From Brachycybe producta (Eukaryota; Arthropoda; Diplopoda; Playtdesmida; Andrognathidae), in NCBI GenBank assembly GCA_036925085.1, contig JAUPFP010000038.1, forward strand, positions 728,001 to 792,000: DNA of 64,000 nt, written 5' to 3'. This document shows, piece after piece, positions 27,958 through 57,140 of the stretch (its first letter is position 1; each line of letters begins with the position of its first letter). The translations under genes and the position numbers were made by a program. The notes under the pieces were generated by a model. It was not told the DNA's origin, ran no database searches, and was given only the letters and a program-made list of their open reading frames with translations.

Positions 27958-28191
27958 ACACTTGTATTCAGAGCACTATCTTTTTTGCTACATTTTTACA
28001 TTTTTTTCATGCAATAAATAATGTACTTTTCTTTTTGATTTAACAATTAAGAGGGTTGTGAAGTAGGTGAATTTCTGAAAAATATTCATAGAGGGTGCTC
28101 GCATCGTTTATTATGTATATAGGACGTTATGGTTATTCTCTAATATGATATGCAGCTTATGTATAAATGGTAAATTTTTGTGGGGGATGCA

Positions 28192-28925
28192 TTAGAGGCT
28201 ACAATGGATGTATATTCTCTTATTATATTTTGTTATGAAAACTATGTTTTACCTGAAAAATGTTGACCCGCCATATTTGTTTTTGGTGGGTTTAAGTGCT
28301 GACAAAAACTTAATTTTCTCTATTTCCATGCATGCTAAAAAAAATCTGTTCAATCCAACTAAAAGATCTGGTGGGGTTTTATAAATATCTAAAATTTTAT
28401 GCTGAAATATTCATATATAACCTTAGAAACTTACCTTCAAGTTCATGAAAAAAACCGTTGGCATCAAATTTCAAGTTGTAGGCATTTGCTATAGAGTTAC
28501 TATAGTCTATAGTATGCAATAGTAACTGTCAAATTTAAAATTGGAGCCATTTTTCTGCTAAAAGGTGGGATGGGTAAATTTAAAAATTAGAAAACAGCAA
28601 GAAGGAAAAGAAGAGACAGCATAAAATTTCGATTGTATTCCTCTCAACTATAGCCTCTCATAACTCCTGATAGGAGGCTATGTCTCAACATAGTTGGTAG
28701 GTTGCCATGGAAACAGACAGCCTACATTTTATAAACAAGGGAGACATTACAAAAAGAATAATAATGTATTTTCTATATAGAGAAACATCAAGCCATCTAA
28801 TCTATCCAAGGATGTATGTAGTGTCACATTCAAATGCTATTTTTGAACATGATGTCATATTCACTATTATTTATATGTATCTGTGTGTGTATATATGAAT
28901 AAATATGTATGTTACGGCCAATGTA
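28192..28925 (+). repeat. Foldback element, left outer arm
   Basis: Non-tandem sequence whose reverse complement recurs at 31545-32271. Landmarks inward: TGTTGACCCGCCAT, CATGCATGCTA, AGATCTGGTGG, AGTTCATGAAAAA, AGGTGGGATGGGTAAATTTA, CCATGGAAACAGACAGCC, and ATGCCTAGGCAATCTGCAAA at the junction with the tandem array. The arms differ by many substitutions and small indels, so the palindrome is not newly formed. A 63-residue open frame here has no domain signature. Confidence 0.75.
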
Positions 28926-29580
28926 TAAAATGCCTAGGCAATCTGCAAAATCACTCTTTTGCTAGTAAATATTCAAAATTCAGCAATTTAGGTCATGTGC
29001 ATACTAATCATCAGGCAATGTGTTAAATCCGGAATTTCCCAGGCAATAGACAAAATTCAGAGTTTTAGGCAATGTGCAAAATTCCTAACTTCAGGCAATG
29101 TGCAAAATTATCGACTTTTCATAAAATGTGTAAAATCACAAACTTTCCAGGCAATCTTTAAAATGACTACCTTTTCAGGCAATGTGCAAAATAATTAATT
29201 TTCTAGGCAGTGTGCCAATTTTTTTTAACTTTTCAGGCAATGTGTTAAATCCAGAATTTCTCAGGCAATAGACAAAATTCAGAGTTTTAGGCATTGTGCA
29301 AAATTCCTAACTTCAGGCAATGTGCAAAATTATCGACTTTTCATAAAATGTGTAAAATCACAAACTTTCCAGGCAATCTTTAAAATTCCTAACTTTTCAG
29401 GCAATGTGCAAAATAATTAATTTTCTAGGCAGTGTGCCAATTTTTTTTAACTTTTCAGGCAATGTGTTAAATCCAGAATTTCTCAGACAATAGACAAAAT
29501 TCAGTGTTTTAGGCAATGTGCAAAATTCTTACTTCGGGCAATGAGCAAAATTGTTAACTTTTCAGGCAATTTGCAAATTG
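28926..29580 (+). repeat. Foldback element, left middle array (~37-bp units, 222-bp higher-order period)
   Basis: About 17 degenerate units of the form CAGGCAATGTGCAAAAT plus about 20 variable bases. Groups of six recur as a higher-order unit: the landmark CAGGCAATGTGTTAAATCC appears at 29012, 29234 and 29456, a constant 222-bp step. The right-hand partner array (31159-31560) is shorter and does not show this period. Confidence 0.8.
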
Positions 29581-29583
29581 TTT

Positions 29584-30213
29584 GCGAACCTTACGGGACG
29601 GCTTGCGAACCTTTGCGGGTCGGAATGCGAACCTTTGCGGGTCGGAATGCGAACCTTTGCGGGTCGGAATGCGAACCTTTGCGGGTCGGAATGCGAACCT
29701 TTGCGGGTCGGAATGCGAACCTTTGCGGGTCGGAATGCGAACCTTTGCGGGACGGATTTGCGAACCTTTGCGGGTCGGATTTGCGAACCTTTGCGGGTCG
29801 GAATGCGAACCTTTGCGGGTCGGATTTGCGAACCTTTGCGGGTCGGAATGCGAACCTTTGCGGGACGGATTTGCGAACCTTTGCGGGACGGATTTGCGAA
29901 CCTTTGCGGGACGGATTTGCGAACCTTTGCGGGACGGATTTGCGAACCTTTGCGGGACGGATTTGCGAACCTTTGCGGGACGGATTTGCGAACCTTTGCG
30001 GGACGGATTGCGAACCTTTGCGGGACGGATTGCGAACCTTTGCGGGACGGATTGCGAACCTTTGCGGGACGGATTTTGAACCTTTGCGGGACGGATTTCG
30101 AACCTTTGCGGGACGGATTGCGAACCTTTGCGGGACGGATTGCGAACCTTTGCGGGACGGATTGCGAACCTTTGCGGGACGGATTGCGAACCTTTGCGGG
30201 ACGGATTGCGAAC
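29584..30213 (+). repeat. Foldback element, left inner array (22-23-bp units)
   Basis: About 28 head-to-tail units of the form TGCGAACCTTTGCGGGACGG. Unit variants occur in blocks: GGGTCGGAA first, then alternation of GGGTCGG and GGGACGG, then 23-bp GGGACGGATT with a triple T, then 22-bp units. GC- and CpG-rich in an AT-rich setting. Because the unit contains no stop codon, open frames longer than 200 residues arise; their translation only rotates through the unit. Confidence 0.9.
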
Positions 30214-30237
30214 CTTATAGAGCCTTTCTGTAGTTTG
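30214..30237. other. Centre of the foldback palindrome
   Basis: A short unpaired spacer of about 24 bp (TATAGAGCCTTTCTGTAGTT at its core) separates the two inner arrays. In a single strand it would be the loop of the hairpin. Confidence 0.7.
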
Positions 30238-31158
30238 CAAGCCGTCCCGCGCGCTTCGCAGATCCGTCCCGCGCAGGTTCGCAGATCCGTCCCGCGCAGG
30301 TTCGCAGATCCGTCCCGCGCAGGTTCGCAGATCCGTCCCGCGCAGGTTCGCAGATCCGTCCCGCGCAGGTTCGCAGATCCGTCCCGCGCAGGTTCGCAGA
30401 TCCGTCCCGCGGAGGTTCGCAGATCCGTCCCGCGGAGGTTCGCAGATCCGTCCCGCGGAGGTTCGCAGATCCGTCCCGCGGAGGTTCGCAGATCCGTCCC
30501 GCGGAGGTTCGCAGATCCGTCCCGCGGAGGTTCGCAGATCCGTCCCGCGGAGGTTCGCAGATCCGTCCCGCGGAGGTTCGCAGATCCGTCCCGCGGAGGT
30601 TCGCAGATCCGTCCCGCGGAGGTTCGCAGATCCGTCCCGCGGAGGTTCGCAGATCCGTCCCGCGGAGGTTCGCAAATCCGTCCCGCGGAGGTTCGCAAAT
30701 CCGTCCCGCGGAGGTTCGCAAATCCGTCCCGCGGAGGTTCGCAAATCCGTCCCGCGGAGGTTCGCAAATCCGTCCCGCGGAGGTTCGCAAATCCGTCCCG
30801 CGGAGGTTCGCAAATCCGTCCCGCGGAGGTTCGCAAATCCGTCCCGCGGAGGTTCGCAAATCCGTCCCGCGGAGGTTCGCAAATCCGTCCCGCGGAGGTT
30901 CGCAAATCCGTCCCGCGGAGGTTCGCAAATCCGTCCCGCGGAGGTTCGCAAATCCGTCCCGCGGAGGTTCGCAAATCCGTCCCGCGGAGGTTCGCAAATC
31001 CGTCCCGCGGAGGTTCGCAAATCCGTCCCGCGGAGGTTCGCAAATCCGTCCCGCGGAGGTTCGCAAATCCGTCCCGCGGAGGTTCGCAAATCCGTCCCGC
31101 GGAGGTTCGCAAATCCGTCCCGCGGAGGTTCGCAAATCCGTCCCGCGGAGGTTCGCAA
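30238..31158 (-). repeat. Foldback element, right inner array (23-bp units)
   Basis: About 40 units in the opposite orientation to the left array. Read on the plus strand the unit is GTTCGCARATCCGTCCCGCG plus three bases. Units fall into three consecutive blocks: about 7 with GATCC and CAG, about 11 with GATCC and GAG, then about 22 with AATCC and GAG. Against the left-array unit the constant difference is CTCCGC versus CTTTGC. Open frames of 306-564 residues cross it on both strands and are artefacts of a stop-free unit. Confidence 0.9.
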
Positions 31159-31560
31159 ATCATTTGCAAATTGCCTGAAAAGTTGTCATTTTGTGTGTTG
31201 CCTGGAAAGTTTGTGATTTTAGATATTCTCTGAAATAAGTTACGAATTTTGCACATTGCCTAAAACGCCCTAAATTTTGTCTATTGCCTGAGTATTTAAC
31301 ACATTGCCTTAAAGTTAAAAAAATTGGCACTGCATAGAACATTATTTTGCAAATTGCCTGAAATGTTAGTGATTTTGCAAATTGCCTGAAATGTTAGTGA
31401 TTTTGCAAATTGCCTGAAATGATAGTGATTTTGCAAATTGCCTGAAATTTTAGTGATTTTGAAAATTGCCTGAAACATTTCTGTTTGTCCATGACCTAAA
31501 TTGCTGAATTTTGCATATTTACTAGCAAAAAAAGTGTGGATTTGCATATTGCCTAGGCAT
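31159..31560 (-). repeat. Foldback element, right middle array (~30-38-bp units)
   Basis: Inverted counterpart of the left middle array: TTTTGCAAATTGCCTGAAA repeats four to five times, preceded by more diverged ATTGCCT units. About 400 bp against 655 bp on the left, so the two arrays have expanded or contracted independently. Confidence 0.8.
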
Positions 31561-31579
31561 TTTATACATAGGTGGTAAA

Positions 31580-31639
<60 letters not shown>

Positions 31640-32271
31640 AATACATTATTTTTTTTGTTGTAATGCCTTTTTTTTATAAAATATAGGCTGTCTGTTTCCA
31701 TGGCAACCTATAAACCTAGGTTAGACATAACCTTCTATAAGGTGCCATAGAGGCTTTGGTTGAGAGGAACACAATCTAAAATTTTATGCCATGTCTTCTT
31801 TTCTTGCTCTTGTTTTCTTATTTTTAAATTTACCCATCCCACCTTTTAGAAGAATGAGCACGCCCATTTCAAATTTGACAGTTGCCATTGAGATACTATA
31901 GACTCCATAATAACTCTATAGTAACTGTACAATTTGAAATTGGGTGCTCTTGCTATGCTCTATAGTACAGGACATAGCTGTAATTATTTGATGCCGATGG
32001 GGTTTTTCATGAACTTCAAGGTAATCATCTAAGGTTATAAATACATATTTCTGCATGAAATTTTATATGTTTATAAAACTCCACCAGATCTTTTAGAGGA
32101 ATTCATCAAATTTCTTCTAGCATGCATGTAAGTAGAGTAAATGAATTTTTAGACATCACTTACACCCAGCAAAAACAATCATGGCGGTCAACATTTTCTA
32201 TCTAAAACAAAACATACACATAGTTTACATAATAGAATATTATGTGTAATGTGACGTCATGTACTCTCTAA
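31545..32271 (-). repeat. Foldback element, right outer arm
   Basis: Reverse complement of the left outer arm, beginning at ATTGCCTAGGCATTTTATAC. It carries a (TA)n microsatellite of about 50 bp at 31587-31636 that is absent from the left arm. Landmarks outward: GGCTGTCTGTTTCCATGG, TTTACCCATCCCACCTTTTA, TTTTTCATGAACTTCAAGGT, CACCAGATCTTTTAG, TAGCATGCATG, ATGGCGGTCAACATTTTC. Confidence 0.75.
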
Positions 32272-34327
32272 CCAGGCCTTGACTCAATCAGATTTTTATT
32301 GATCTGAAAAAATTGGCCCATTACGACTTTTACTTCAATATAAAAATATACACATGCAATTAGGTAATGAAATTTAATTGTTCTTATAGAAAACAAATAA
32401 ATCTACCACCACATTTTTTTATTTTACTATTATCTCTTTTGTAAAACAAAGATAATGGATACCAAATATGTAGCTTTTTTTCTTCTATGAGATTTTGCAT
32501 AGAAAAAAAAAACACCTTTTTAAATATTTAATTAAAAATATTTAGAGGCAGATTTAAAGTCTGAAATTTTTTTAATCTGTTCCATTAAACAATCTAATAT
32601 TTATTACAGTTTTAATCACATTTTAAAAACTTATATGTCTCCAGATAATGACTACCAAACCTAACTGTATGTTTGAAATTTAAATTAGCATTATGTCTAT
32701 GCTAATTCAATACAAGTGGCGCCTCTGACGTCAGACACTGCAATCATAATGTCGTCTGTCAAAAAAACGTCCGTGGCGCTCTGTAACCCTCTTAAACGGG
32801 GATACAACAAAATACTATTATACTTTTTAGTGTAAATTGGGAAAAGGTCGGTTCTAAGTTTTTGCAAAAAGTCCATGCACATATTTGGTAGTTCAATCGA
32901 ACTTTTTTTTATCATAAGGACAAAGTTAGAAGTTATAACCTTTCGGTTAACGCCTCATAACAGTTTTTTTACCTTTCTGTAATGACCCTCACGGGCTGCT
33001 TGTGGATCAATTATTCAAATTTAACTTCTAGTAAACATTGTACAATTTTGTTATCTTTCGGGTAAAACTTTTCGTTTTAAATTTGTCATTGAGTTTACTG
33101 AAAAAGACCTAATTAGTAATGTTTTAAGTAAACTGTCATAAGATGATTTTTTATAATAAAAGTTTTATAACCATTTCACTTCATATAGTCTATATTTATA
33201 TATTAAAAGTGTCAACAACATATGTATGTTGTGATTATATTTGTAACTTAACTCATTAAATTATAAGACGTAGATTATAATTAATACGACCATCATGATG
33301 CACTTTCGGCATTCAACACTTGAAATTCCAAAATATAATTTTTAAAGTGATAAAAATATATATTAAAAAAAAACTGTCGACAATTTTCTCATAATAACAT
33401 CTTAATCTTCTGAAAATCTATTCACATTTCTGTGAAAATCTTTTGGCATAAAAACAGCCAAAGATCTTTACTTATTTTAAAGATGAAAAAAAAACCGTAA
33501 TTACAACAATAACACACACAAAAAAAAATTTTTTTCTACACATATTGCCCATCCCCATATAATTCGACTCTTTTTTTTTTGGTTTTAATTTGATTCTCTT
33601 CCAACAACATTACTTCTCAAAATTGGGCTGTACCCGGGTCAACAATTACAAAGAAATTTGTTGTTCGTTCAAACACTACAAGGCATAATTAAGATCAAAG
33701 CGTTGCAATTGCAACCTAATCATTATCACAATTTGCTTAGAATAGTTTAAATCAAGTTAATGGGTTCCAAATACACTTCTTTTTTCTCTTTTTGTTTTTT
33801 TCTCTTTATATACATTACACGCAATACAGTATAATAGACGCCTATTAGTAGCAGATCTCCGATTTCAATAATCAGCTCCTTGGCGTTATCATTAGACGCA
33901 CATTATATAAGCTTAACCACCTTCACTACAACAAAACAAAAACTCTCAAATAAAACCTCCTTATATATATAAAAAAATATATACTCTCCAATATAGGCTC
34001 CTCAGTTAATATACATAATAAGGGGAGGCCGGAGTTTGCGTGATGGACACATACAATTAACGTTTCTTTAGCTTTATATCGGTAAACGTAATTACATAAT
34101 TTGGACATTTAAAGAGTCTATAGAAAAACTTTAAGAAGTATTAACAAAAAAGAAACCCTCTTATGTTGGCCTTCGTAATATGCCTCTAAATCTTTCCACC
34201 AAGTTGTAAGATAATTACACAGTTCACTCAAAATAGATGACAAGTTAGTTCAACGAGTTTTTAAAACACCGAGGATTTTTTTCCCCTTCCTTTCTATACT
34301 TATTAACGATTATACAAGAAAATACAT
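32272..34327. other. AT-rich non-coding stretch
   Basis: No supported gene. A 72-residue ATG-initiated open frame on the minus strand (32697-32915) has a less biased composition than its neighbours, but no domain and no convincing splice context. Confidence 0.45.
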
Positions 34328-36356: not shown

Positions 36357-36662
36357 GTGGTCGGATTTATATGCAATATCAAGCAAATGTTTCTCAATAT
36401 GTGACCCAAGTGCCAATAGTTCATCATCATAATCAGAGAAACTATAACTGCGCTTTTTCTAATAAAAAAGGGCTGGTTAGAAGCTAGATGTCTGTTTGCA
36501 ATCAGTTATCGACTTAAGTTCTAGCCTCTAACCAGTGATTTTGACTGAAAAAACCATTAATTGTTGGTTGATCTAAACGGGATTTTTACTTCACAATTCT
36601 TGGCCCTTGGGTCACGGACTGAGGAACAATTTGCTTGATATTGCATATAAATCCCAGTCCTA
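36357..36662 (-). mobile_element. Family A MITE, copy 5 (reverse orientation)
   Basis: The outer arms (TCGGATTTATATGCAATATC and GATATTGCATATAAATCCCA) are intact. The interior runs in the order seen on the minus strand of the other copies: GCTTTTTCTAATAAAAAAGG early, GGTTGATCTAAACGGGATTT late. About 306 bp. Confidence 0.75.
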
Positions 36663-36710
36663 GTAATAAGACTTGAAAAAAAAGTTTATATTTTAATCTT
36701 AAAATATCAA

Positions 36711-36759
36711 CTTGACCCATGCACGATTTCATTATAATGAATCGTGCATGGGGTCAAGT
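36711..36759. repeat. Compact hairpin, about 23-bp arms
   Basis: CTTGACCCATGCACGATTTC on the left pairs with GAATCGTGCATGGGGTCAAG on the right around an AT-rich loop, with single-base indels. It lies about 50 bp after family A copy 5. Possibly a small MITE; no second copy seen. Confidence 0.7.
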
Positions 36760-38542
36760 ATATATTTTAATCCATCACACCGTTTTGTCATATAAAACAA
36801 ACAGCATCCATATAAAAATGTTTATAAATGTTTGCTCACACTTCCAACCTCCACATTTTATTAAATTTTTTTTTTTACAAAAATCACGATTTTTTGGTTT
36901 ATTCGGTCTAAAGTCAAGTCAAAAGTGTCAAGTAAAATCCCACCCCTTTTTTAGTGTTGTTGTTTATTAGAATTTCACCATAATTCACAATCGTGTAAAT
37001 AGGGTCATTTTAGGACACAAATACCTATCCTATCTCATCTTCACCCATTCCCTCCCACCTATAGTCATATACCTCCCTCTCTCTATGTCTTTTGTCTATC
37101 TATCCATCTCTCTATGTCTCTCTCTCTCTCTCTCTCTCTGTTTCTCTACATGTAATACATCATTACGTCACGTGTCAGGTACATTACAAGGTGATATGAT
37201 AACATGTTGCCGTATATTACAAACAACAACAACAAAAATGTCTCATTTCATAAACAACCAAAAAATACATTTTACTGTCAAAAAAAACATAACGCCTTTT
37301 CTTCTATGGAACACCCACGCAATATTGTTTAACAAAATACTCTCTCTCTACACTTTTTTCATGGTTTTTTATTATACAATATTATAAACATTAAATTCTC
37401 TCTAGACACATTGTGGTATGCACATACCACCTGACAAAAACAAAAACTGGACACAACCATTTATAAATTATAACCCTACTCAAATACTATATAAAATTTA
37501 AAGATGAACATAAAAATAAAAATTCGACAATTCCTGAAGTTCATCTCAACACCACAACGAAAACCGTTTAAGACGAAAATGGATAACACGTAAAATTGCA
37601 TAACACAAAAAATGTGTACTTTTGTAGAGAAACATGTATTTTGGACATTTGTCCCTCTACCACAGGCCTTCTTTCGCTACCTGCAGAGTAATTTTTCAAA
37701 TTTAAATATTTTTGTGTCCTTAAAATTTTTTTCTTTTAACACGAAATTTGTTTAACATGAAATACAATGTACATTTACAAGAAATTTGAGTGAAAATACT
37801 ATTTTTTTCATCCAATATATTTTTTCATCTTTGTGAGCCAGTAATCAAAAACTGACCAATTATACCTAAAAAGTGTTAAACCCATTTAAAATCCCCCCTT
37901 ACATTAATTACAATTAACTCAAAACTCAAGTCAGTTGTCTGAGGTCGTTAAGTAGGCCTATTCAACATTGCAAACAAGTACTGTCAAGAGTTAGCCCACA
38001 AATGAACTTCCTCAGTTCAATTTTAAACAGAGTACTTTAGAATGGAAACCTGCTGACCATGACAATATATAAACACACTCAAGTCTCTCTCTCTTTCTTT
38101 CTGAAGTCCATATAATAATAAAGAAGCACACGTCCCACTGATGACCAGAAAGAAAGAAAAAACAGCTGAATAAACATGGTACTCCATGCAATTTCTTGAC
38201 CCCCATAGTCTCAAAATGATCCGCATGGGGCCCAATTAACTTCTATTTTTGGCTCTCTTTTCTTAAATTCTTCTAAAAATGAGTCTCAACTATTTAGAAG
38301 AAGAAGAAGAAACCCAACAATAACGGAAATTCACCATCAACCACATATTACACGAGCCTGCGTGTGATTTTCTGATTGGATTAGAGATCACAAAAGGTGA
38401 TGGTAAAAGATATATTAAACGACAGACCAAAAAAAAACCTAACAAGTCACGGTCAAGCCAAAAAACGATAACCCTTAAATTGCATTCTAACCACCCATAG
38501 AGCCTCCTGGTGTGACAGCAACCAACTAATCAGACACATAAT
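36760..38542. other. Non-coding stretch with CT microsatellite and K fragment
   Basis: No gene. (CT)n at about 37118-37139. A K-type fragment at about 37645-37710 reads TTTGTCCCTCTACC, AGGCCTTCTTTCGCTACCTG, AGAGTAATTTTTCAAAT. Confidence 0.5.
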
Positions 38543-39076
38543 GGATGCGTTCAGTTGTTAAGCACTTTTGAAACTGCTCGAGCAAATTTCACGTGCATGT
38601 CAAATCAAAAACTGCTGGAATGGAGCTGCTTGATGAGCACATGGAGGCTTGAGCCTTGGGCAGCCCCAGCCACGGTTGTTACCTGTTGCAGAATGTTGCA
38701 ATGGCATCGTGCCACGCACAGTCCAAAAGTTTAATTATTTTCATCTAAATAAGGTTTTTTCATAACAAAATATAAAAAGTAATTATAAATAATAATAATA
38801 ATAAAGTCTATGTGTAAGGCATAACACAAAAATCAAGCCACCAACACCTGTTTCAAACTGAATCATCGGTGTTGCGGTTGTGACATCGAAACACTACTGG
38901 CATCCATTGGAAAGCGCTCCAACGAGCGGAAAAAGAAAAGTCACAACAAACAACAAAAAAGATAAAAAAACTTTCATGTGAAAAGCTTTCCATTCATTTT
39001 CGAGCTGTTTTGCAAAGCAGCTTCAAACGAGCAATGAGCGCACAAAAAAAGAGGTGCTTAGAAACTGAACGCACCC
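38543..39076 (+). mobile_element. Family O TIR element carrying family B
   Basis: Ends GGATGCGTTCAGTTGTTAAG and GTGCTTAGAAACTGAACGCA-CCC are inverted repeats of about 23 bp. A secondary pair, GAGCTGCTT and AAGCAGCTTC, lies further in. The centre is occupied by a reverse-oriented B element. Without it the unit is about 300 bp. No clear target-site duplication. Non-coding. Confidence 0.65.
38650..38882 (-). mobile_element. Family B element, copy 2 (reverse orientation)
   Basis: On the minus strand it matches 48881-49112: GCAACA, ATTCAGTTTGAAACAGG, GGCTTGATTTT, TTTTGGACTGTG, GGCACGATGCCATTGCAACA, AGGTAACAACCGTGGCTGGG. Nested in element O. Non-coding, about 233 bp. Confidence 0.75.
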
Positions 39077-39987
39077 AAATATGCAACAAATCACTAGTAA
39101 TTTTTTTTTCGTCTTTCTTAAAACTATTCTTCTTGAAAATTGTACCCAAAAACACATTAATTTATGTCTAGTGTATAATCAAAACTTGAAAGGTAATTAA
39201 TAAATTGTTATAAATGCAATGGTAACATTAATATGCCTTATTATAATTTATATTTTAACTGCAAGTTCTATCTCTATAGTCTAAGAGGCATAAATATTAT
39301 GACATAAATTAACTAACATAAGGACCAACCCAGTTACTTGAACTCCTATTTTTTTTTTTAAAAAAACTTGTCAAAATAATTTTCTCCTTACCACCTTTTA
39401 AAAAATATATTTTCGATTTTATTATTAGCAAGAAAAAAGAGGGGGGGGCATTAACAAGAGTAGGAGAAACACAATTTATAAGCTTAACTAACATAACTTT
39501 GCATGTTTACATTTTTTGAAGACAAGACGTGACCAGGGCCAAAAAATAATTCAATATCTCAATCAAGAACAACAAAAAAATACATAGTCCCCCCCCCCCC
39601 ACCTCCACGTTCCTTTTCAGTCAAAATTTTTATGTTTATCTATCGAATCCTATTACAAATTTACACACAAACACACCCAACTTTTAAAACAAAACAAAAA
39701 ATCAACTATTTCAAACCCCCTCCCCCCACCACCACCACCACCAAAAAAAAAATGCAAATAAACCCTCTATATACTCAAATCTATCACTTTGTTTTCACAC
39801 CTCTTTAAGTTCAACCAATTACAGGTCATTTTCAAAGCTTTTATGTACTTGTCTAAATCATTTTTTTTTTGTATTATAGACATTACATATAAACATAAAA
39901 TATAAGATTTGTAGAAAGCTCAAGACAGATATATACCATATATTAGGTATAGGTTGTAGGTAGGATATATTATATGTATAAGTACTA
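39077..39987. other. Non-coding stretch upstream of the Copia insertion site
   Basis: No gene. C12 at 39589-39600 and an ACC-rich tract at about 39727-39743. Confidence 0.5.
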
Positions 39988-39992
39988 CTATT
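39988..39992. repeat. Copia target-site duplication, left copy (CTATT)
   Basis: CTATT immediately precedes the element and is repeated exactly at 44952-44956. A 5-bp duplication is the usual staggered-cut signature of Copia-type integrases. Confidence 0.92.
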
Positions 39993-40335
39993 TGTTAGAG
40001 TTTTAATTCATGGATGCATTAATAATACTTTGATATACATTAGATTGTAAAAACTTAAAAGCACATTTTGATAAAGATGATTGTCAACTACCATCACCAT
40101 TGAACATAAAGTAGTATTGCACAGAAAGGAAGGTTCCTGGCACTTTGCTGCCACCTATATTTATACCACCACCAAAAACAACTTTTCAATAAGAGAAAGG
40201 TCAGTGACCATAAGTCACATGGTCCCTTTCTCAGAAAACCTAAAACAATAGGTCCTTTGTGATAGACATGAAATGGTGTCACCTTTGAGTGACCACTGAG
40301 AAAAAATACCTGCAGGACGCAATTTTAAACTAACA
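39993..40335 (-). repeat. Copia 3' LTR
   Basis: 343 bp, TGTTAG...CTAACA with a 6-bp terminal inverted repeat. It matches the 5' LTR at a constant offset of 4616 bp with no difference seen. The 62-residue open frame inside is present in both LTRs, lacks a domain, and is not called a gene. Confidence 0.95.
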
Positions 40336-40347
40336 ATCCCCCTTTGC
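40336..40347 (-). promoter_or_regulatory. Polypurine tract (plus-strand DNA primer)
   Basis: On the minus strand GCAAAGGGGGAT directly abuts the 3' LTR. This purine run is in the position where RNase H leaves the primer for plus-strand DNA synthesis. Confidence 0.85.
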
Positions 40348-40372
40348 GTACAAACGTTTTTTTTCATTAGTC

Positions 40373-43300
40373 TTATTTTAAAAGTCCCAACATTTGATTG
40401 CAATTTAGAATTTTATCACAAGTCAGGCTTTTGGTTAATAAATCTGCTTCCATCTCTTCTGACCGGACAAACTCCAAGCAAATGTTGCCTTTCTGGACCT
40501 CATCTCGAACAAAGAAATATTTCCTATTAATATGCTTGGTTCGTGAATGTTGACTAAGGCTACGAATCCAATCAATGGCAGATTTGCTGTCTGATTTCAC
40601 AATAAGTGGTGTTGTTATATATTTATTCATGCCTAATTCTGAGACTAAACTGACTGACCATTTAAGATCTCTAACTCCTTCACATATAGCCATTAGTTCA
40701 GCTTCACAAGTTGAAAGTGCTACTAGTTTCTGTTTCTGGCTTTTCCAGCTAACTAGTTTATCACCTAGTTTAACCGTATAGCCCGAAAAGGATTTTGCAT
40801 CCTTAGTAGAGCACCAACTTGCATCCGTACTAACTTCTAACTTACCTTCCTGTCTACTGTATTTTAGTCCATACTCAATAGTTCCCTTTAAATACCGGTA
40901 AATTCGCTTAACTGCTGTTAAGTGAATTTGCCTTGGGTCTTGGTTGTACTGAGACAACTGACTAACATGATATGTAATATCTGGTCTTGTCCCCACAGAT
41001 AAGTACATTAGTGAGCCCATCATTTCCTGATATTCTTTTTGGTTAACTGGTAGAGAATCATTACTTTGATCCAAGTCTTGATTAGGGTCACCAGGTGTTT
41101 TTACTGGGTTACACTCATCCAGCCCAAACCTTTTCAGTATTTTGGCAATGTACTTCTTTTGGGATAATTCAAACCCCTCTTTGGTTTCACTGATTTCTAA
41201 TCCTAAAAAGGTACTTGCATTATTTATTTCAGTAATTTCAAAATGACTCCTTATTTTTTCCATTATCTCATGAATGAGATTTTCATTACTCCCTGCAACT
41301 AAAATGTCATCTACATAGACCCCCAAGAATAAACTTTCACCCTGTCTTTCATATTTGTAAACACATGGGTCACTTTTTAATCTTTGCAACTTTAAATTGA
41401 CAAGAATCTCATTTAACTTCTCGTTCCAGCAGCGTCCCGATTGTGGGAGTCCATATAAGCTTTTTTGAAGTTCACAGACTTTTCCTTCATCTCCCATTTG
41501 GATAAAACCCTCTGGTTGTTCCATAAATAATTTTTCTTTTAATTCTCCATAAAGATACGCTGTTTTGACATCATATTGTTTTATTTTTAACTTTAATTGT
41601 GATGCCAGGGCTACTAGAATTCGTAACGATTCCAGTTTCATGACTGGAGCAAAAGAAGCTTCGTAATCGATTCCCAATCTTTGGCTACAACCTACTGCAA
41701 CTAACCTGGCCTTTCGTTTGTGAATAGTGCCATCTGGGTTTTCTTTTAAGTCAAACACCCACTTACTTTTTATGACTTTCATGTCTCTTGTTCGTGGAGT
41801 TAATTTCCACACACAATGATTTGTCAAAGATTGCATTTCTTCATTCATTGCTATTTTCCAGTCCTCAGAATAAGGCACAGTCATGGCCTCTGTGTAGTTT
41901 TCTGGAATAACCTTTCCCCCCTCAATTGATATACTGGCTTGGTGTCTAGCTGTTTGTCGGTTCGATCGTCTTACTCCTTGAGCTATCAACCTTTCTTCTC
42001 TTTCCATCATTTCCACCTGGTGCCTTGCTTGAACTAATTCATTTGTGTCTCCTTGTTTACGACCGGGCCTCCAAATCTGGTCTGGTTCTAAGATTTCGTC
42101 ATGACATATTCCCTCAGGTTCTAACTGTTCTTCCTCTATGATGGCGTGATCTTGCTCTTTATATTCTAATTTCTTGTAGTCAGGGCCCCCCGGAACTAGT
42201 TCATTTAGTAATGTAACCCCCTTTTGGTGTTCATCGAACCTTACTGATCGTGATTCGTGCACTAAGTTATCTTCTGGGTCATACACCCTGTATGCTTTTC
42301 TCATCTGAGAATATCCGAGGAAAATCCCTTTGTTTGCTTTTGGTTCTAACTTATTTCTTTTGATTTTTGGAACAAAGTAATAAGCTAAGCTTCCAAACAC
42401 ACGAAGGTGTGTCACAGTTGGTACTCTTCCAGTCCACTTCTCAAATGGGGTTTTGCAGCTATCCTTTATTGGCGTACAATTCTTTAGGTAAGCGGCTGTT
42501 GCCACTGCTTCAGCCCAAAATTCAAGAGGGAGTTCTGCATCTAGTAACATTGTTCTTGCTTTGTCTAATAGTATTCTATTTGCTCTCTCTGCAACTCCAT
42601 TGCTTTGGGGTGAGTATGGGACAGTTCTCTGATGTTGGATTCCTTCATCCCGAAACAGATTTTCAAATTTATTGTTAATGAATTCCAACCCATTATCTGA
42701 TCTTATGCTTTTTATTTTAAGTCCCAATTCATTTTCCCTTAATTTCTTGAACTCTAAAAAACAATCAAATGTTTCATCTTTTGTTTTAAGGAAGTACACA
42801 AAAATTCGCCTGCTGAATGAATCAATTAATACATAAATGTATTTTGCCCCACCCAATGATAATGTTGGCATGGGCCCACATAGATCCATGTGAATTAATT
42901 CTAGTGGTTTTGTCTCGGATTTTATTACAATACTCTCATATGGCTTTTGGGCCATTTTACCTCTTACACATGGCTCACAGGTTCCTAATTTTCCTGGTTT
43001 CAAAGATAGACCTTTTACCATTCCATGTTGTTGTAATTGGTCCATGTAGGCTTCTCCTAGATGTCCTAATCTTTTGTGCCACAATTCTTTTTCTGGACAT
43101 TGCAGCCTATCCTGTAGTTTTGCAGTCATGCATTCTCTAGTTACTTCTTGTTCCTGAAATCTTAATTTTGTTTTTAGTACAAACATTCGATTTTTTTCAA
43201 AAGCTTCACCAATAAGATCTCCATTTTGATTAGTAATTTTAGCACCATTATTTTCAAAAACAATTTGATTTCCTCTACTTAACAAACTTCTAACTGATAA

Positions 43301-44470
43301 AAGGTTTGTCCTTAATTTTGGTACATATAATACATCTTGTACACAAATGTTCTTTTCTTGCCCATTCTGTAATGTGGTAGTGAGTTTTACATTTCCTCTT
43401 GCCACAGCCTTGATTGATCGTCCATCCTCAGCCAAGTTGACTTCACTGTCCATTGGTGTAACATCAGCCATCCAGTCGACCCTAGGAGACATATGCACTG
43501 TACACCCAGAATCCAGAGTCCACAGGTCTGTTCCACATGTAGAATTATCAGCTGGGTAGCTTGCTTCATTAGGTTGTAGATTAGATACATTCCATGCATG
43601 CTCAGAGAAGTCTTGTTTTGCTATGCTGGCCATTTGTCTCCCATGACCATTACCTCTAGCACTGTAATTTCTACCTCGTCCAGATCCTCTTTCAGTTCTG
43701 AATCTATTTTGAGATTCATTTTTGTGTCTATGCCAACAGTCTTTGGCTAAATGTCCGACTTTTTCACACACAAAACATTTTGCTGGTTGATTTTGTGGTC
43801 TTGATTTTCCTCTAAATGTTCCAGCCTTAAAGGCCCTTTCTGTGTTTGAGTTACTTGTGTGATTGGAGGAGCCCCCTTTAGAGTTCAATCGAATTTCTTC
43901 TTCCTGAAGAGCTTGTTGAACATATTCAATGGTGGCTGCTCTTTGAGGTCTGAGTACAGCTGCCACTGTTTCCATCCTGGATGGTAGGCCTCTCACAATG
44001 TGATACACAATTTCTCTTGTTGGGATTACCTGCCCTAAGGCAGCACTTCTTGTTGCAATGCTTCTTGCTCTAGTCAGATAGCAATCAACAGATTCATTTA
44101 CCCCCATCTGTATGTTTTTTAATTCAAGTGATGTGTCTATTCTTTTGTCTTCAATGTTCCCAGCATGAGTTTGTTTTAGTTGTTCCCAGACAGATTTGGC
44201 TTTTCTTTCCCCAATAAATAAACCAGCTTGTTCTGGTGATAAGGTACATACAATTATTCCAAAGGCTTCATCATTTTGTTCTTCCCAAAGTTCTCTTTGC
44301 TTGGCTTCAGATGATCCAGGTTCTCCTCCAGGTGCTGGCTCTGGGTCTTCTAGAATTGTTTTGTAGAGTTTTCTTGTCCTCAAAACTGTGCTGATTTTCA
44401 GTTCCCAGATGTGATAATTGTCCCCTGTTAGGAGGTCAATCCTGTTGAGTGATATGTGAGTTGTTGCCAT
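40373..44470 (-). CDS. gag-pol: Copia gag-pol polyprotein, 1365 residues, intact
   Basis: One uninterrupted frame encodes all replication proteins of the retrotransposon, which are cut from the polyprotein by its own protease. Gag (about 1-300) has the UBN2/Copia-type N-terminus and a CCHC zinc knuckle (C232, C235, H240, C245) for RNA packaging, followed by a basic Gly/Arg-rich linker. Protease has DSG at 320-322. Integrase has its zinc site (H465, H470, C498, C501) and a DD35E catalytic triad (D529, D592, E628). Reverse transcriptase has D967 and YVDD at 1052-1055. RNase H has D1216, the ALSTCEAEL motif at 1251-1259 and D1294. The ATG at 44470 has a good context (AAAATGG) and is the first in the frame. 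The stop lies 25 bp before the polypurine tract. No frameshift separates Gag from Pol, as usual for Copia-type elements. Length fits the family. Confidence 0.97.
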   Translation of the reverse strand: MATTHISLNRIDLLTGDNYHIWELKISTVLRTRKLYKTILEDPEPAPGGEPGSSEAKQRELWEEQNDEAFGIIVCTLSPEQAGLFIGERKAKSVWEQLKQTHAGNIEDKRIDTSLELKNIQMGVNESVDCYLTRARSIATRSAALGQVIPTREIVYHIVRGLPSRMETVAAVLRPQRAATIEYVQQALQEEEIRLNSKGGSSNHTSNSNTERAFKAGTFRGKSRPQNQPAKCFVCEKVGHLAKDCWHRHKNESQNRFRTERGSGRGRNYSARGNGHGRQMASIAKQDFSEHAWNVSNLQPNEASYPADNSTCGTDLWTLDSGCTVHMSPRVDWMADVTPMDSEVNLAEDGRSIKAVARGNVKLTTTLQNGQEKNICVQDVLYVPKLRTNLLSVRSLLSRGNQIVFENNGAKITNQNGDLIGEAFEKNRMFVLKTKLRFQEQEVTRECMTAKLQDRLQCPEKELWHKRLGHLGEAYMDQLQQHGMVKGLSLKPGKLGTCEPCVRGKMAQKPYESIVIKSETKPLELIHMDLCGPMPTLSLGGAKYIYVLIDSFSRRIFVYFLKTKDETFDCFLEFKKLRENELGLKIKSIRSDNGLEFINNKFENLFRDEGIQHQRTVPYSPQSNGVAERANRILLDKARTMLLDAELPLEFWAEAVATAAYLKNCTPIKDSCKTPFEKWTGRVPTVTHLRVFGSLAYYFVPKIKRNKLEPKANKGIFLGYSQMRKAYRVYDPEDNLVHESRSVRFDEHQKGVTLLNELVPGGPDYKKLEYKEQDHAIIEEEQLEPEGICHDEILEPDQIWRPGRKQGDTNELVQARHQVEMMEREERLIAQGVRRSNRQTARHQASISIEGGKVIPENYTEAMTVPYSEDWKIAMNEEMQSLTNHCVWKLTPRTRDMKVIKSKWVFDLKENPDGTIHKRKARLVAVGCSQRLGIDYEASFAPVMKLESLRILVALASQLKLKIKQYDVKTAYLYGELKEKLFMEQPEGFIQMGDEGKVCELQKSLYGLPQSGRCWNEKLNEILVNLKLQRLKSDPCVYKYERQGESLFLGVYVDDILVAGSNENLIHEIMEKIRSHFEITEINNASTFLGLEISETKEGFELSQKKYIAKILKRFGLDECNPVKTPGDPNQDLDQSNDSLPVNQKEYQEMMGSLMYLSVGTRPDITYHVSQLSQYNQDPRQIHLTAVKRIYRYLKGTIEYGLKYSRQEGKLEVSTDASWCSTKDAKSFSGYTVKLGDKLVSWKSQKQKLVALSTCEAELMAICEGVRDLKWSVSLVSELGMNKYITTPLIVKSDSKSAIDWIRSLSQHSRTKHINRKYFFVRDEVQKGNICLEFVRSEEMEADLLTKSLTCDKILNCNQMLGLLK

Positions 44471-44595
44471 TTTTTTTTTCTCTTCTTGATGATGAATTAT
44501 TTTAGGCTGTTAGTCCACAAATATTCAATGTTTTTTTTTTCTTTTAAAAAGTCGCCATTTCTTTTCACTAATCACTTTTTCTAATAGCAACCACG

Positions 44596-44606
44596 CTCTG
44601 CTACCA
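44596..44606 (-). promoter_or_regulatory. Primer-binding site, initiator tRNA-Met type
   Basis: On the minus strand TGGTAGCAGAG starts 2 nt after the 5' LTR. It is complementary to the 3' end of eukaryotic initiator tRNA-Met (ending CTCTGCTACCA). The match stops after 11 nt. tRNA-iMet priming is common in Ty1/Copia elements. Confidence 0.88.
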
Positions 44607-44608
44607 TT

Positions 44609-44951
44609 TGTTAGAGTTTTAATTCATGGATGCATTAATAATACTTTGATATACATTAGATTGTAAAAACTTAAAAGCACATTTTGATAAAGATGATTGT
44701 CAACTACCATCACCATTGAACATAAAGTAGTATTGCACAGAAAGGAAGGTTCCTGGCACTTTGCTGCCACCTATATTTATACCACCACCAAAAACAACTT
44801 TTCAATAAGAGAAAGGTCAGTGACCATAAGTCACATGGTCCCTTTCTCAGAAAACCTAAAACAATAGGTCCTTTGTGATAGACATGAAATGGTGTCACCT
44901 TTGAGTGACCACTGAGAAAAAATACCTGCAGGACGCAATTTTAAACTAACA
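44609..44951 (-). repeat. Copia 5' LTR (contains the promoter)
   Basis: 343 bp, TG...CA ends, no difference from the 3' LTR seen by eye. It precedes the PBS and so drives transcription of the genomic RNA. Confidence 0.95.
44774..44781 (-). promoter_or_regulatory. TATA box of the Copia 5' LTR
   Basis: TATAAATA on the minus strand, inside GGTATAAATATAGG about 170 bp into the LTR. Its position in mid-LTR fits the U3 promoter. The same motif sits at 40158-40165 in the 3' LTR. Confidence 0.6.
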
Positions 44952-56528: not shown

Positions 56529-56758
56529 TTTCTCTCTTATCGATGGATAAAAGTGGCTATATTTTAATAACGGCTCTTTTTTGGGTAAATATGCACTACT
56601 GAAAAAAGGAAGAGCAACTTTTGTTCTACAATGGTGAGTAATTTGAGTCGTATACAATTAGTGGTCAAATTTTAGGGTATCATGAAACTTATGGTTAGTG
56701 GGAAATTTAGATCCTATAAAATGTATAAACGGAGGAGCGTTTGTCGCCTATGGGATTT

Positions 56759-57140
56759 AACATGAGCTAAAAAAATACGAAATTTTAAAATGAAATTAAA
56801 AATAGAAAAACTAATTATAAACTTGTACCAACGTATCACTAGATGAGCAATATTGTTATGTACATATTGCAATTCGAATTTTGAAAATCACAATTTTTGT
56901 TGCAGAAAACAAAACATTTGTGTGAACCATGTATTTTTAAATAGGAATTTAACATGGGCTAAAAATACGAGATTTTAAGCGAAATTAAAAATAGAAAAAC
57001 TAATTATAAATTTGTACCAACGTATCACTAGATGAGCAATATTGTTATGTACATATTGCAATTTGAATTTTGAAAATAACAATTTTCGTTGCAGAAAACA
57101 AAACATTTGCCTGAACCATGTATTTTTAAAATAGGAATTT
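56759..57140 (+). repeat. 192-bp tandem duplication
   Basis: 56759-56950 and 56951-57140 are direct copies, both starting AACATGRGCTAAAAA and ending ATTTTTAAA-TAGGAATTT, with about a dozen differences. Shared landmarks are TACCAACGTATCACTAGATG and GTTATGTACATATTGCAATT. Each contains TTGCAG, which looks like a splice acceptor but has no open frame behind it. Confidence 0.9.

Follow-up and report, generated by a model that had tools for sequence, protein, structure and literature searches.

The foldback transposons FB of Drosophila and TU of the sea urchin have inverted arms composed of tandem repeats. An element with arms of this kind lies at positions 28047-32795 of the stretch of DNA analysed here, the window, which comprises 64,000 nucleotides (nt) of the Brachycybe producta genome (C38:728001-792000; assembly of 295 Mb in 442 contigs). 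The arms of FB and TU are, however, terminal and accompanied by other target-site duplications, whereas those of the window element are internal and the element is bounded by TTAA. The window element is very probably a non-autonomous transposon of the Kolobok superfamily that is moved in trans by the KolobokE-type transposase of elements of about 12 kb in the same genome.

Most foldbacks are assigned to the Mutator superfamily, Galileo being one of the exceptions (PMC4079207). The system most like the window element is Tetris, from Drosophila virilis (PMC4079207), likewise a non-autonomous foldback with arm arrays that vary in number and ends in common with a miniature inverted-repeat transposable element (MITE). 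Tetris, however, has terminal arms, 220-bp units and 8-10-bp duplications, a kinship with Mutator was proposed and no transposase was found, whereas the window element has internal arms, a TTAA duplication and a partner that carries a transposase. Galileo, of the P superfamily (PMC3688188, PMC4079207), also has long arms with internal repeats, but differs in its P-type transposase and its terminal arms; the repeats of Galileo hold THAP binding sites. Kolobok elements were described by Kojima and Bao 2022 (PMC9587614) as having TTAA duplications, RR..YY ends and a C/DxxH motif; in KolobokE and a few other lineages the first D is followed by a CCHC finger, and KolobokE has a lambda-exonuclease-like nuclease. 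No Kolobok foldback was found in the open-access literature searched, where the available text brought the words Kolobok and foldback together only in unrelated mentions; the family may be catalogued in Repbase, which was outside the search.

The limits of the mobile unit were set by alignment of copies, in which similarity started and stopped sharply. The sample comprised 20 copies besides the window, read as 10-kb pieces, so that 21 were compared and 20 had both ends; the remaining copy (L011) was excluded from the end, divergence, array-unit and flank counts. The unit is 4749 bp long, including both TTAA, with 145 bp to the left of the palindrome and 524 bp to its right. Its features are listed below, together with their likeness to a 1.1-kb family, N, and to an element on contig C259, both of which are discussed later.

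28047..28050, no strand: TTAA target-site duplication, left (TTAA on both sides in 18/20 copies)
28051..28057, plus strand: terminal inverted repeat GAGGGTT, left (end comparison across copies)
28051..28205, plus strand: left terminal module, common to N (79%) and C259 (78%, 165 columns)
28192..28805 (end approximate), plus strand: left unique arm of the internal palindrome; its first 12 bp are TTAGAGGCTACA, which is armless in C259 and N too
29011..29577, plus strand: left AT-rich array of ~28-bp period, with the periodicity at 29063-29577 and a 222-bp higher-order repeat at 29011-29564
29582..30216, plus strand: left 22-bp G+C-rich array, 28.5 copies of the unit GAACCTTTGCGGG[A/T]CGGA...GC
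30217..30241, no strand: centre, 25 bp
30242..31161, minus strand: right 23-bp G+C-rich array, 40 copies, mirrored, with its own unit types
31162..31530, minus strand: right AT-rich array region, with regular 28-bp units at 31344-31475
31586..31636, no strand: (AT)n run, in the right arm only
31640..32271 (inner limit approximate), minus strand: right unique arm of the internal palindrome
32239..32794, minus strand: right terminal module, which matches the C259 element's end at 96.2% identity (556 bp)
32785..32791, minus strand: terminal inverted repeat AACCCTC, right (end comparison across copies)
32792..32795, no strand: TTAA target-site duplication, right (TTAA on both sides in 18/20 copies)

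The terminal inverted repeat (TIR) was limited to the 7 bp GAGGGTT...AACCCTC directly inside the TTAA in all 20 complete copies, each of which had 5'-GA..TC-3' termini, the RR..YY form given for Kolobok. The 4-bp TTAA that flanked 18 of the 20 is the Kolobok target duplication. The flanking sequences were unrelated between copies, the best ungapped identity over 100 bp being 42%. Across the genome, the left-end pattern gave 65 matches, 37 of them of the window element's type by manual count, and the right-end pattern gave 37 (34 exact, two with one mismatch and one with two). Matches to the left arm were mostly 96-100% identical. The counts from DNA searches are lower bounds, since 40 matches were scored out of 133 candidates for the left arm, 215 for the right side and 408 for N; about 17 further copies from the arm and end searches lie outside the copy sample. 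Three pairs of copies, on C38, C27 and C21, lie less than 50 kb apart, as compared with 0.23 expected (P ~0.002, with the limit chosen post hoc), in line with local cut-and-paste jumps. At C21:3410743-3418848 (L053-L055), a head-to-head pair of foldback copies has one central TTAA in common; the outer flanks of the pair differ and one copy is without one tip base.

The unique arms align inward from 28192 and 32271, and both start with TTAGAG. The longest ungapped block is 202 nt with 82% complementarity, and the gapped alignment continues through the AT-rich arrays to about 29412 and 31163. Both arms were present in each of the 20 complete copies, which rules out chance as the origin of the inverted structure. 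The preliminary description, made from the window alone, had taken the element to be a non-autonomous foldback occupying 28192-32271 with two mirrored halves. The many copies with common boundaries bear out a non-autonomous mobile element of foldback anatomy, and the inverted arms, mirrored arrays and short centre are all present, the arms at the limits given. The mobile unit is larger, however, and the halves are imperfect mirrors with array units that differ between left and right. Open frames inside the arrays were rejected as genes and taken as by-products of the 22/23-bp repeats in several frames. The longest stretch conserved in both arms, at 28698-28725 and its mirror, is AGGTTGCCATGGAAACAGACAGCCTA, which also occurs exactly at many places outside the family; within it, GTTGCCATGGAAAC presumably resembles the RFX X-box.

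The likely source of transposase was found among the three right-end matches outside the foldback copies. The two that have one mismatch, at C259:31705 and C107:265188, each have a match to PF20700 with an open frame (980 amino acids (aa) in C259, 967 aa in C107) about 5.6 kb inside, and left-type ends at C107:253254 and C259:43835 would delimit elements of about 11.9 and 12.1 kb. The C107 element has TGAA on both sides. On a third contig, C184, a left-type end and a PF20700 match are spaced as in C107, with no right end among the matches listed. The C259 frame matched PF20700 at residues 180-527 (E 8.9e-87) and the lambda-exonuclease-like YqaJ domain PF09588, as expected of KolobokE, at residues 728-878 (E 5.1e-17). 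The named database hits of the transposase were from Rhipicephalus, Helicoverpa and Bacillus rossius. When the first 626 aa of the frame were aligned with six database relatives (31-37% identical), D330, D424, D426, C446, H449 and E576 were invariant in the seven sequences, giving, by our own assignment of the catalytic residues in C259, a DDE triad with CxxH between the second D and E. The CCHC residues C369, C372, H385 and C387, which follow the first D as in KolobokE, were also invariant. PF20700 carries a Mutator-like Pfam name, but a 4-bp TTAA duplication is unlike Mutator. On the 3' side of the transposase frame, C259:39761-41600 (L045) contains short segments that recur and are bordered by splice-like sequences (GTAAGT, TTTCAG; by eye), perhaps a second, spliced gene.

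The right end of the C259 element was 96.2% identical to the right module of the window over 556 bp, and the similarity stopped about 30 bp inside the arm. These shared end modules suggest that the window element is moved by a Kolobok transposase, and the 12-kb elements of C259 and C107 are likely its autonomous partner. The TTAA duplication, the 5'-GA..TC-3' ends and the partner transposase are the reasons for placing the element in the Kolobok superfamily and the KolobokE lineage. The likeness to KolobokE (PMC9587614) comprises TTAA, 5'-RR..YY-3' ends and, in the partner, the DDE residues, C/DxxH, CCHC and a downstream lambda-exonuclease-like domain; C259 was assigned by motifs and domains, from published descriptions. 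The window element differs in that it is geneless and that its core is a 4-kb palindrome containing mirrored arrays, a form that does not appear in the available text of PMC9587614. A larger relative with a transposase had been suggested as worth seeking, and the 12-kb elements are such a relative, with a transposase of the Kolobok type. Mirror structures can thus appear even in a group of transposons with which they are not commonly associated.

N, a 1119-bp element, was found inserted in one foldback copy on C273, at a TTAA in the foldback arm where the uninterrupted arm of the window has a single TTAA. Its right module was 85% like that of the foldback over 537 columns and its left module 79% over 165. 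N consists of two C259 ends joined without the interior and, because the left end of C259 is 81-91% like N over 413 bp, it is on this comparison an internal-deletion derivative of a C259-kind element. In the genome search, 38 of 40 scored matches, N itself included, were full length, and a third group of about 0.93 kb also carries these end patterns. The copy that contains N (C273:14606-28546, L041/L042), 13.9 kb long, was considered as an autonomous foldback and rejected, being a foldback copy that nested insertions have disrupted: it contains N and, 24 bp farther on, a Ty3/gypsy-like retrotransposon whose 993-bp direct repeats are identical. A recent foldback family, its shorter derivatives formed by deletion and a likely autonomous partner whose frame is open seem to coexist in one genome, which makes the origin and upkeep of foldback cores testable.

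The arms and the arrays have changed at two different rates. The identity of the two unique arms within each copy was 83.2-84.3% (20 copies), whereas the divergence between copies outside the arrays averaged 0.33% on the left and 0.36% on the right (190 pairs). Once units outside a spacing of 12-40 nt had been dropped, the G+C-rich arrays of the 20 copies contained 38 unit types, none of which (0/38) occurred on both sides; the left units end in CTTTG and the right units vary (CTCCG, CTGCG, CTTCG, GCGCG). Because the arms have diverged by about 16%, the copies by about 0.35%, and no unit type is shared, the palindrome is far older than the present burst and was inherited as such, and its arms show no sign of being evened out by conversion. 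The copy number of the arrays, on the other hand, changes fast on each side. Four copies that are free of substitutions over the ~2.1 kb outside the arrays, gaps ignored, had 39/48, 27/38, 27/39 and 22/36 left/right units. Two copies on C27 had identical array maps and different flanks, and the change in the arrays is therefore not tied to every jump. Of the two processes put forward in the preliminary description to explain how both arms were kept, repeated conversion is not supported by these values, and slippage survives, in that slippage or unequal exchange within each array suits the array data. Two clocks can be told apart in the data, that of the palindrome, which has persisted with no conversion between its arms, and that of the mirrored arrays, whose turnover is much faster than the change in the arms.

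The probable origin of the core is as follows. A KolobokE parent would have contributed only two dissimilar end modules (roughly 150 and 530 bp) and the TIR of 7 bp, its interior having been replaced by the palindromic core. The core would derive from one old inverted duplication of the arm, the AT-rich array and the G+C-rich array together, perhaps through template switching at the short inverted repeat TTAGAG..TACA of the arm tips. The latter idea is suited by the presence of the tip repeat, armless, in relatives: TTAGAGGCTACA and TTAGAGAGTACA are native to C259, and the right tip of N is TTAGAGAGTATG. Afterwards, the halves would have been inherited unchanged in layout, diverging by point mutation, and each array would have grown and shrunk on its own via slippage or unequal exchange, with mobilisation in trans by cut and paste at TTAA.

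A composite origin, in which a KolobokE-derived MITE received a separate foldback by insertion and the two afterwards spread as one, is rather unlikely. An arm 26-mer gave 113 matches with up to three mismatches, and among the first 100 listed many had no mirrored partner nearby. The three sites read (L050-L052) were 88-90% like the right arm and ~85% like the left arm and were without the (AT)n run. Such arm-like sequence outside the family implies that an older arm-bearing family exists, and it is this that keeps a composite in consideration. The junctions between core and modules, however, fall in TTAGAG..TACA on both sides, a repeat that also occurs in the armless relatives, and inspection of the junctions by eye, in the sequences compared, revealed neither TTAA nor any other obvious target duplication. 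Moreover, at least two arm-bearing places have related-type ends AAGAGGCCTGT at a distance of 1.4 kb (C32:2810325-2811766) and 2.1 kb (C9:910671-912758), a sign that there may be an older family of this kind.

A non-autonomous piggyBac element would share the TTAA duplication, and intact piggyBac transposase frames are present in the genome. None of the 12 piggyBac loci read, however, had TTAAGAGGG or CCCTCTTAA (that is, no GAGGG ends), three showed paired TTAACCCTTT ends, and the 5'-GA..TC-3' termini of the window element have the RR..YY form of Kolobok, so that this reading is very improbable. The TTAA MITEs of PMC2872659 have piggyBac-type CCC ends, unlike those of the window element. Equally improbable is a classical long-TIR foldback of the FB, TU, Galileo or Mutator kind, the kinship first suggested for this element. 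The long inverted arms rich in tandem repeats, the arrays and the short centre recall that class, but the ends contradict it: the arms are not terminal, the TIR is 7 bp instead of very long, and the duplication is the 4-bp TTAA as compared with 8-10 bp for Mutator-type foldbacks such as Tetris (PMC4079207). Finally, palindromes and arrays are prone to assembly error, but an artefact or a local inverted duplication with single-copy arms, the outcomes that the preliminary description had named as refuting its reading, can be dismissed, because the search with the arms and the alignment of copies gave a multicopy element with common ends, a TTAA duplication and the same arms in 20 copies, which are spread over many contigs and have unrelated flanks.

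Several observations weigh against the interpretation of the window element as a KolobokE derivative with an old core and independently changing arrays. The left TTAA is absent from two copies (L016 and L024) and the right end from L011. The left module of C259 is only 78% like that of the window, and for this reason C259 ranks as a relative and is not demonstrated to be the very mobiliser; its flanks, CTAA and TTAA, are an imperfect pair. Its interior was sampled at 31690-32390, 36500-41600 and 43250-43880, and C107 and C184 at their ends only. The unit counts rest on the assembly, and the numbers of units on the left and on the right are correlated (r 0.62, 20 copies), so that full independence of the two sides is not demonstrated; the correlation could come from shared descent or total-length effects. 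In free local alignment, the best score of TTAGAG..TACA was 18, as compared with a mean of 19.6 for shuffled sequence, and the repeat is notable only by its position. More generally, the case for transposition and excision rests on sequence comparison, not on direct observation.

It is doubtful, but conceivable, that the lambda-exonuclease-like domain of KolobokE helps to make and reshape palindromic cores, through resection of the donor gap after excision, snap-back of inverted repeats in the exposed single strands, reverse copying of the arm during repair and slippage of the arrays. If so, KolobokE transposition would repeatedly generate internal palindromes with fast-changing mirrored arrays as a by-product, and these would supply new satellite-like DNA.

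An Rfam scan of the window gave no matches. Elsewhere in the window, a Copia-like retrotransposon lies at 39985-44951; its 351-bp direct repeats are 99.7% identical and it has an open frame of 1378 aa on the minus strand. Its closest named hits were in pseudoscorpion, led by Cordylochernes. A 189-bp tandem duplication with 92% matches occupies 56755-57140.

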